Positions 56,985 to 60,808 of a DNA stretch of 64,000 bases are shown piece by piece. The stretch is from positions 868,001-932,000 of the forward strand of contig NZ_PEND01000001.1 in assembly GCF_002844195.1 (NCBI RefSeq), written 5' to 3'. This DNA comes from Halegenticoccus soli (lineage in GTDB: Archaea > Halobacteriota > Halobacteria > Halobacteriales > Haloferacaceae). A program made the position numbers and the translations under genes. The notes beneath the pieces are model-generated. The model was not told where the DNA came from. It was given only the letters and a program-made list of their open reading frames with translations, and did not search any database. Position 1 is the stretch's first letter. Each line of letters begins with the position of its first letter.

Positions 56985-57836
56985 TCAGAAGTGCCGCCGC
57001 AGGTGATCGCGCGTCGCGGAGAGCGTACAGGGCGTGAGTCGCAGGCTGAGCCGCTCCGTGTTCTCGACGACCGCGGCGGCGTTCCGCGCGTGCGAACAGC
57101 GGTCGGACGGCGGGTCCTGCGTGACGGAGCCGTAGTACAGGAGCATCGGCGAGTTCGCGCGACCGCGGCGGTCGACGTACTGCGCGCCGTCGGCGTGCCG
57201 GCAGCCGAGGGCGTGTCCGACCTCGTGCATCACCGTCGCCTCCCAGGCGGTGACGCCGCCGCGAAGCTTGTTCGCGACGTTGCAGACGACCGTCGTCCGC
57301 CCGTCGGGGGCGTACCCGCCCGCGTCCGCGCTCGAAACCACGCGGCCGTTCAGGACGCAGGTGACGTCGGAGACCATGAGCAGGTGGACGCACCCCTCCT
57401 CGGCCGCCGCCGAGGATTCGGACAGCCAGCGCCGGAACCGCCGGCGGTTTTCCCCGCTCGAACGGGATCGATCGTAGCGCGGGTACGTCTCGCCGCTCTC
57501 TTCGAAAGAGAGCGCCAGACCGCCGTACCTGCGGTTGTACTGGTCGACGTACGCGCGGAGCGCGCGCTCCTCTTCGCCCGTCCCGAATCTGGTTCTCGGC
57601 GTTCGGAACGTCACGACGCGGAGTTCGTACTCCGGGTCCGCGATCGGGCCGCTCCAGGCCGCTCTCGGACCCGAGGCGCTCCCGGTCGCCCCGACGCTCA
57701 GCGCGGCCGCGAAGCCGCCGCCGACGAGCCGGAGCGCCGCCCGTCGAGACGCCGCGGCGACCGTCCCCGTTCGGGTTTCGCCCGTCTCCGTCCGGCTCTC
57801 GTCCGTCTCCGTCTGATTCTCGCCCGTCTCCGTCAT
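56985..57836 (-). CDS. Tat-exported metzincin-like zinc protease
   Basis: A 283-residue predicted secreted protein. The N-terminal 30 residues are an acidic Thr/Glu-rich repeat (ENQTETDESRTETGETR), followed by a twin-arginine signal (SRRAALRLVGGGFAAALSVG). The catalytic zinc site is HEVGHALGCRH with H204, H208 and H214 as ligands and E205 as base, i.e. HExxHxxGxxH, and a Met-turn candidate M231 (SPMLLYYGS) follows at the right distance. Several cysteines (149, 160, 185, 212, 247) may form disulfides outside the cell. Substrate and subfamily are unknown. Confidence 0.82.
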   Translation of the reverse strand: MTETGENQTETDESRTETGETRTGTVAAASRRAALRLVGGGFAAALSVGATGSASGPRAAWSGPIADPEYELRVVTFRTPRTRFGTGEEERALRAYVDQYNRRYGGLALSFEESGETYPRYDRSRSSGENRRRFRRWLSESSAAAEEGCVHLLMVSDVTCVLNGRVVSSADAGGYAPDGRTTVVCNVANKLRGGVTAWEATVMHEVGHALGCRHADGAQYVDRRGRANSPMLLYYGSVTQDPPSDRCSHARNAAAVVENTERLSLRLTPCTLSATRDHLRRHF

Positions 57837-58071
57837 CGAGTGTCGTCCGTCGGCGACGCCCGTTTCGACCGCCGGGCGGTCGCCGCGCGCGGACCGTCAC
57901 CTCGTTCGCATACTCACCTTCGCGGCACATATATCATATCAATATTCTAATAATTTTAATAAGCGAACGTGAACGTCAAATTCGGCGGACGTTCACGACG
58001 ACGTGACAATCGCCAGCATCGGCCCGGAGCCGCACCACAGCCTGCAAGTGCTTCCGCTGCCGAACGGAGGT
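57837..58071. promoter_or_regulatory. A/T-rich divergent promoter region with inverted repeat
   Basis: About 235 bp between divergent genes. A run of A/T-rich sequence (ATATATCATATCAATATTCT onwards, near 57927-57963) offers TATA elements in both directions. Next to it CGTGAACGTC (57968-57977) and GACGTTCACG (57988-57997) form a perfect 10-bp inverted repeat, a possible operator. Confidence 0.5.
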
Positions 58072-59713: not shown

Positions 59714-60667
59714 TCAGGCGACCCGCGCGAGCCACCGCTCGGGGTGGTCGAGTTCGACGTTCGTCGGCAGGTTCTCGGGGCGCTCCCACACCTTGCTCGC
59801 GGCGGCGACGCCGCGGGCGTCGGCAACCGCCTCGAAGAACGCCGCGCCGCGCTCGTACTGGCGGCGCTTCAGCCCGAGGCCGAGCACGCGCCGGACGAGC
59901 TGGGCGAGCGGGCCGCCGCCGCGGCGGCGCTCGTCGAGCTTCCGCCGCAGGTCGGCGTAGTCGTCGTCGAACGCGCGGTCCATGAGCAGCTCCGCGTAGC
60001 CCTCGACGGCGGTCATCGCCGTGTCCAGCTCGCGGAACGCCTCGCGGTCGAGGCTCCCCTCGGCGAGGGCGTCGACGCCCTCCTCCATGCGGGCTTCGAG
60101 GTACCCGGAGAGCCAGGGCGCCGCGCCGAACTCCGCGGCGTGCGACACCTCGTGGAAGGCGATCCAGCGGCGGAAGCGCGGGTAGTCCACGTCGAGCGAG
60201 TCGGCGACCTTGCGGATGTTCGGCCGGACGAAGTAGAGCCCGTGGTCTTCGTCCCCCTCGGCGAGGAGCAGCGGGTCGTACTGTCCGAGCACGTTGTTGC
60301 CGAGAAACGAGAGCATGAACGCCATCGTCCCGGTGTTGACGACGCGAGCGACGCCGGGAAGGACCCCGGCGCCGCGGCGCTCGATGGGGCGCATCACCCG
60401 CTCGAAGGTGCGGATGTTCGCGTCTATCCAGTGGTGGCGGTTCTGCACCTCGATGGCGTCCGGGAGATCGAACTCGACCGCGGCGACCGCGCGGAGCCGG
60501 GTTCGCGCGTCGCGGACGTCGGTGGCGTAGCCCGCCCGCTCCTCCGGGGAGAGGTCGAGGCTCCCCGGGTCGGTGGCCGCCTTGGCCGCCTCCGCGACCG
60601 CGTCCCAGTCGACCACGCCGGTTCCCGACGCCTCGGTTACCGCGCGGACGCTGCGATAGAGGTTCAT
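59714..60667 (-). CDS. Zinc-dependent metalloprotease-like protein (DUF2342 family)
   Basis: A 317-residue protein of the DUF2342/coenzyme-F420-biosynthesis-associated type. The conserved HEVSH zinc motif is at 172-176 (FHEVSHAAEF), and a family motif around LLLAEGDEDHGLYFVRPNIR precedes it. The N-terminus MNLYRSVRAVTEASGTGVVDW and the middle LGNNVLGQYDPLL are typical. Proteolytic activity has not been shown for most relatives. The ATG used removes a nine-residue upstream extension. Convergent with the small membrane protein gene. Confidence 0.85.
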   Translation of the reverse strand: MNLYRSVRAVTEASGTGVVDWDAVAEAAKAATDPGSLDLSPEERAGYATDVRDARTRLRAVAAVEFDLPDAIEVQNRHHWIDANIRTFERVMRPIERRGAGVLPGVARVVNTGTMAFMLSFLGNNVLGQYDPLLLAEGDEDHGLYFVRPNIRKVADSLDVDYPRFRRWIAFHEVSHAAEFGAAPWLSGYLEARMEEGVDALAEGSLDREAFRELDTAMTAVEGYAELLMDRAFDDDYADLRRKLDERRRGGGPLAQLVRRVLGLGLKRRQYERGAAFFEAVADARGVAAASKVWERPENLPTNVELDHPERWLARVA

Positions 60668-60808
60668 ACCCCTACCTCCGGGATCGCCGACCAAAACGCT
60701 TGTGCGGTCGCCGGGAGAGCCCCGCGGGACTCACTTCATTTCGAGGGAGCCCGCTCGGACGAAACCGCCGTGCGTCGGCCTCACACGGCATGACGGCTTT
60801 GAAAGCGC

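Follow-up and report, generated by a model that had tools for sequence, protein, structure and literature searches.

A probable Tat-exported metzincin-type protease of Halegenticoccus soli and its relatives among haloarchaea

Background

The literature on haloarchaeal exoproteases centres on halolysins (among the matches listed), which are serine proteases exported by the Tat pathway and, according to passages of PMC6085418, carry an N-terminal propeptide. The same passages describe cell death in Hfx. volcanii when the halolysin SptA is retained inside the cell by a mutated signal. For the archaemetzincins (M54), the portion of PMC3427221 available gives the signature HEXXHXXGXXHCX4CXMX17CXXC and reports that BaP1 and similar metzincins have four cysteines at the zinc-finger places of archaemetzincin, where they form two disulfides. 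An excerpt of PMC3403918 names a metalloprotease of Nab. magadii, 'NMP', as described in the literature. A search for literature combining haloarchaea and metzincin found none, and literature on matrixin, archaemetzincin, Halegenticoccus, adamalysin and Natrialba metalloprotease held, among the matches listed, no study of a haloarchaeal Tat-type metzincin family.

The gene described here lies in a 64,000-nucleotide stretch of Halegenticoccus soli DNA (the window; contig NZ_PEND01000001.1, positions 868,001 to 932,000). Like the halolysins its product appears to be a haloarchaeal exoprotease exported by Tat, but it carries the metal-site motif of a metzincin and differs from them in its N-terminal layout. 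Judged from its sequence, it is probably a real and active exported metzincin-type protease, and the best reading of its relationships is that of a divergent member of a metzincin family that is widespread in haloarchaea and has already been labelled automatically.

Gene structure, ortholog and neighbourhood

The gene (56985..57836, minus strand) was identified by an ORF call and by an ortholog in H. tardaugens; it runs from an ATG at 57836 to a stop codon finishing at 56985 and encodes 283 aa. G+C by codon position was 0.67/0.58/0.90, a coding-like pattern. Three copies of an imperfect 21-bp tandem repeat (TETGENQ/TETDESR/TETGETR; 57761..57833, minus strand) encode the start of the protein. 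A twin-arginine signal comes next, and a short linker then leads into a domain of ~218 residues that holds both HEVGHALGCRH and SPM. The Thr/Glu-rich stretch that had been noticed ahead of the Tat signal is this repeat, which is missing from the H. tardaugens ortholog, whose start is shorter. Upstream of the start, at a distance of 94-127 bases, an AT-rich stretch (57930..57963, minus strand) may represent a promoter region, as far as the bases themselves suggest. An NCBIfam search of the protein returned no match.

A search of 170 genomes of the host's taxonomic family (E <= 0.001) matched four genomes: that of the window, that of the ortholog and two with weak matches. Both weak matches were set aside, L003 for its two in-frame stops and its position inside a long minus-strand ORF, and L004, likewise with two in-frame stops, by analogy with L003. 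A paralog was also sought in the host genome; the one weak match (L005, E 0.0086) had no HE.GH..G ORF at its site and was taken as chance, a looser pattern having matched only an unrelated minus-strand frame.

The ortholog is 66% identical to the window protein (67.9% over 215 residues in a gene-by-gene comparison of the stretch). The pair differs with pS 0.47 and pN 0.23, and by this comparison of coding sequences it is evolving under purifying selection. Gene order was common to both Halegenticoccus species over the 12.6 kb compared, with ~2.9 kb between the Zincin_2 and SnoaL-like genes and ~1.4 kb beyond a 168-aa gene as extras in H. tardaugens. The neighbours comprise a Dna2-like helicase, a 135-aa and a 184-aa gene without Pfam match, and a SnoaL-like gene. 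Identities to H. tardaugens were 94.3% for Zincin_2, 87.7% for the helicase, 80.7% for the 184-aa gene, 68.3% for the SnoaL-like gene and 60.3% for the 135-aa gene, placing the metzincin-type gene among the faster-changing genes of the stretch, though not as the fastest. The helicase gene lies 53 bases downstream in the same direction and may therefore share a transcript with the metzincin-type gene. The Zincin_2 gene (59714-60694, minus strand; PF10103, 203 bits) is a second zinc-peptidase-like gene nearby, with the motif FHEVSH.

Metal site and metzincin class

The original prediction took HEVGHALGCRH and a Met-turn as the full metzincin signature, and both elements are present. The zinc-site motif (residues 204-214; 57195..57227, minus strand) is identical in the ortholog. 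M231 of the Met-turn SPM (residues 229-231; 57144..57152, minus strand) sits in ANSPMLLYYG, 17 residues past H214, and was found in 32 of 33 family rows. A six-frame translation of the window contained a single HEXXHXXGXXH, whereas 60 second-order Markov simulations of window composition gave 0.017 on average. Furthermore, the block TVMHEVGHALGCRHADGAQY is identical between the window protein and the H. tardaugens ortholog, leaving the metal site unchanged. That the motif is invariant across the aligned family partly reflects the way in which the ORFs were chosen, namely by that motif.

Profile comparisons agreed with a metzincin-type protein. Reprolysin_5 scored 27.2 bits in the window protein (cut-off 27), with the other six listed Pfam models under their cut-offs, including Reprolysin_3 (19.3 vs 22.4) and Reprolysin_2 (15.2 vs 27). 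The family profile A5, searched against PDB sequences, returned acutolysin A first (E 9.7e-7), followed by myroilysin, BaP1 and others; ADAM33, archaemetzincin, serralysin and MMPs came in lower rows, and many rows spanned the motif region only. The single window sequence had one PDB match, BmooMPalpha-I, at E 1.5.

A metzincin fold is suggested by structure models of low confidence. Two AlphaFold models, both too weak to prove the fold or to place the third His at the metal, had mean pLDDT of 30.9 and 39.9, the second built with the signal trimmed and two distant viral zincins added to the alignment; its element order, E-H-E-H-E-E-H and then helices, suits a metzincin. Foldseek on the weak model placed M12B enzymes first (E 4.2e-4, TMq ~0.4), with thymine DNA glycosylase appearing from E 0.012, and VIA-align on the weak model ranked an Argonaute at the top (Z 7.7), metzincins being tied close to 7, below the telling Z level.

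By sequence profile and low-confidence model, the protein is closest to the M12B adamalysins or reprolysins (acutolysin A, BaP1, BmooMPalpha-I), which gave the best solved matches, and it may belong to M12B. The window protein differs from these enzymes in having no propeptide region, and the ortholog scores 26.7 bits, just below the Reprolysin_5 cut-off of 27. In M12B enzymes an Asp follows directly after the third zinc His; in the window protein the order is H214-A215-D216, with Ala in that place. Snapalysins (M7) have Asp as the third zinc ligand, in place of the His found at 214. For the matrixins (M10A), Peptidase_M10 reached 13.4 bits in the window protein (cut-off 24). Peptidase_M66 had no match in the host genome. 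Archaemetzincin shares with the window protein a metzincin motif and an archaeal origin. This identity was rejected: the window protein has HEVGHALGCRHADGAQYVDRRGRANSPM in place of HCX4CXMX17CXXC, it carries an export signal, and the host genome has a separate M54 match (G000:C2). PF07998 was absent among the Pfam matches of the window protein up to E 1.

Distribution of haloarchaeal metzincins

The expectation that metzincins would be rare in haloarchaea was not borne out. Archaemetzincin (PF07998) was found in 389 of 391 haloarchaeal genomes, a Tat-type family of ~250 aa, comprising the nearest relatives that were identified, under E 1e-50 in 85 of 391, and a lipobox-bearing matrixin-like type (profile A6, built from six sequences) in 86 of 194 at E <= 1e-10. 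Because all three censuses show wide occurrence, metzincins are not rare in this group; metzincin-type proteins, exported kinds included, are common in Halobacteria.

The Tat-type family was reached through a profile of the two Halegenticoccus proteins, which matched 12 of 391 class genomes, namely the window's own and 11 further genomes of family f4 (Natrialbaceae, by inference). The 11 f4 proteins have 245-256 aa, a twin-arginine start, HExGHxxGxxHxxG, PM and two cysteines. Profile A4, made from these 11 relatives with the window protein left out, was searched against the 391 class genomes and matched 94 at E <= 1e-4. The 85 genomes under 1e-50 comprised 74 of the 100 sampled f4 genomes, 6 of f3 and 5 of f7. 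Nine genomes matched more weakly, and five of them (G021, G028, G047, G423, G424) carry the lipobox type; among four divergent relatives, L059 and L062 have no twin arginine, and L059 also has no Met at its column. With the A4 profile the window protein came up at E 1.3e-10, the match spanning the motif and the C-terminal part, and hhalign of the window protein against the A4 family gave 97.7% probability (E 1.8e-12) over columns 201-277, again confined to these parts. Identity of the window protein to the other relatives was 14-28% over family rows. L009, a Tat-type A4 member, had 11 Pfam models listed with none over cut-off (Reprolysin_5 19.1 bits). Profile A5 matched 32 of 294 genomes of the phylum, those outside the class being short or weak (E 2e-6 to 7e-5).

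A representative of this type, Haloterrigena turkmenica WP_049942150.1, resembles the window protein in its length of ~250 aa, twin-arginine start, lack of room for a propeptide, HExGHxxGxxHxxG motif, PM Met-turn and cysteines matching C247 and C270. The Halegenticoccus proteins differ by the addition of C185/C212 (and of C149/C160 in the window protein alone), by other neighbours, trehalose genes standing beside the plasmid copies of the Haloterrigena turkmenica type, and by being less acidic than L009, the one relative measured.

Eight haloarchaeal plasmids with a Tat-type gene were found, seven labelled 'peptidase M10A and M12B matrixin and adamalysin' and one 'matrixin family metalloprotease'. 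A trehalose block adjoined the Tat-type gene in all five Natrialbaceae plasmids inspected of the eight (L054-L058); there a winged-helix gene faces the Tat-type gene and is itself followed by otsB, a trehalose-6-phosphate synthase gene and an Xaa-Pro/aminopeptidase P gene. With regard to a mobile origin, relatives of the window protein were looked for among plasmids, phages and viral contigs and none was found; A4 found four viral loci, which are distant zincins.

The lipobox type is exported, as the window protein probably is, and likewise carries HExGHxxGxxH, but it has ~340-390 aa and a lipobox Cys in place of the Tat-type start. One member, L065, passes Peptidase_M10 at 34.2 bits, and the host genome also has a match of this type (G000:C1:44607-45677). 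In this type (L063-L065, L067-L069 and the host match), the C-terminal region looks like a second copy of the domain that lacks the motif.

Export, cysteines and surface charge

The protein was predicted to be exported through a Tat signal, and this is probable. The signal (~residues 31-55, its end being inferred; 57672..57746, minus strand) contains the twin arginine R31-R32 in SRRAALRLVGGG; both arginines recur in 31 of 33 family rows. In SRRAALRLVGGGFAAALSVG the twin-arginine motif precedes a hydrophobic stretch, and RR can also be read in the ortholog sequence. Because only ~13-16 residues separate the putative signal end (~55) from the first predicted strand (69-72 in the weak models), an inhibitory propeptide would have no room. 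Our guess is that a redox or zinc switch on export keeps the enzyme silent until then.

Six cysteines are present, at residues 149, 160, 185, 212, 247 and 270, and a fair guess would be three disulfides. C247 (57096..57098, minus strand), the proposed partner of C270 (57027..57029, minus strand), occurs in 30 of 33 family rows and C270 in 32 of 33, the ortholog's counterpart of C247 lying one column away. C185 (57282..57284, minus strand) is found in two of 33 rows, the two Halegenticoccus proteins, and its proposed partner C212 (57201..57203, minus strand), within the motif, in three of 33, these two and L059; as L059 has the C212 counterpart without C185, it counts against a strict pairing. 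C149 (57390..57392, minus strand) and its proposed partner C160 (57357..57359, minus strand) are replaced in the ortholog by Phe and Pro, respectively. That the cysteines stabilise the protein outside the cell is plausible: C247 and C270 are widely kept, C149 and C160 are absent together from the ortholog, and C185 and C212 are shared by both Halegenticoccus proteins.

From residue 66 onwards the window protein has 27 D+E and 31 K+R, compared with 24 and 21 in the ortholog and 36 and 17 in L009. The mature part (56985-57641, minus strand) is slightly basic, its 31 K+R including one Lys, which is odd for an exported haloarchaeal protein. Net charge per 100 residues was +1.1 against a median of -5.3 for 58 window ORFs, a crude set with doubtful frames included; nine of the 58 were higher.

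Proposed function and alternatives

The window gene likely encodes a small zinc-dependent metzincin endopeptidase that would be exported in folded form by Tat and act outside the cell or at its surface. In such an enzyme H204, H208 and H214 would bind zinc, E205 would activate the attacking water and M231 would form the floor of the zinc site; disulfides C247-C270, C185-C212 and, in the window protein only, C149-C160 would be made during export and would stabilise the domain. The enzyme's likely job is to turn over extracellular protein or to scavenge nutrients, the gene context naming no substrate. A possible but doubtful alternative to a scavenger is a protease at the cell surface that processes a single dedicated substrate, such as an envelope protein. 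The single copy in the genome, the lack of propeptide or accessory domain and the same adjoining genes in both Halegenticoccus species would fit such a role, but the neighbours (helicase, 135-aa, 184-aa and SnoaL-like genes) point to no substrate, and the patchy distribution is more in keeping with an accessory role than with a central processing step.

It is rather unlikely that the Halegenticoccus protein stands outside the haloarchaeal Tat family as an M12B-like protease gained separately, for example from bacteria. The common layout (twin-arginine start, no propeptide, Met-turn context and C247/C270) and the A4 match argue for membership, and no nearer relative appeared in plasmids, phages, viral contigs or a genome-contig scan (patterns from a variable region; the profile searches of genomes covered archaea only). 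A separate gain would agree with the presence of the gene in only two Halegenticoccus among 170 family genomes, weak matches set aside, with the 14-28% identity to other relatives and with the higher Reprolysin_5 score than in L009 (27.2 vs 19.1 bits). Very improbable is a catalytically dead or decaying gene that retains only the signature: both species have an intact frame and an identical metal-site block, against which stand a faster change than in the neighbouring helicase and Zincin_2 genes, pN/pS near 0.5, the repeat-expanded start and the loss of an acidic surface.

Should the preferred reading of an exported metzincin endopeptidase hold, with activity and a genuine lack of a propeptide, the enzyme would offer a way to test how the cell is spared by a protease already folded before export. 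A wider scheme, which we consider improbable, is that the haloarchaeal Tat-exported metzincins are propeptide-less, fold in the cytoplasm and are silenced by another switch on export (disulfides or zinc loading, for instance); in the Halegenticoccus branch, two pairs of cysteines would have been gained and the acidic halophilic surface lost.

Metzincin-like motifs on viral contigs

Two viral contigs (L050 4818-5477 and L051 4818-5477) encode a short archaemetzincin-like protein with HEVGHTLGLPHC and CLM. A long phage tape-measure-like ORF (L052 967-4551) has an embedded metzincin motif, HEVGHALGLHH.
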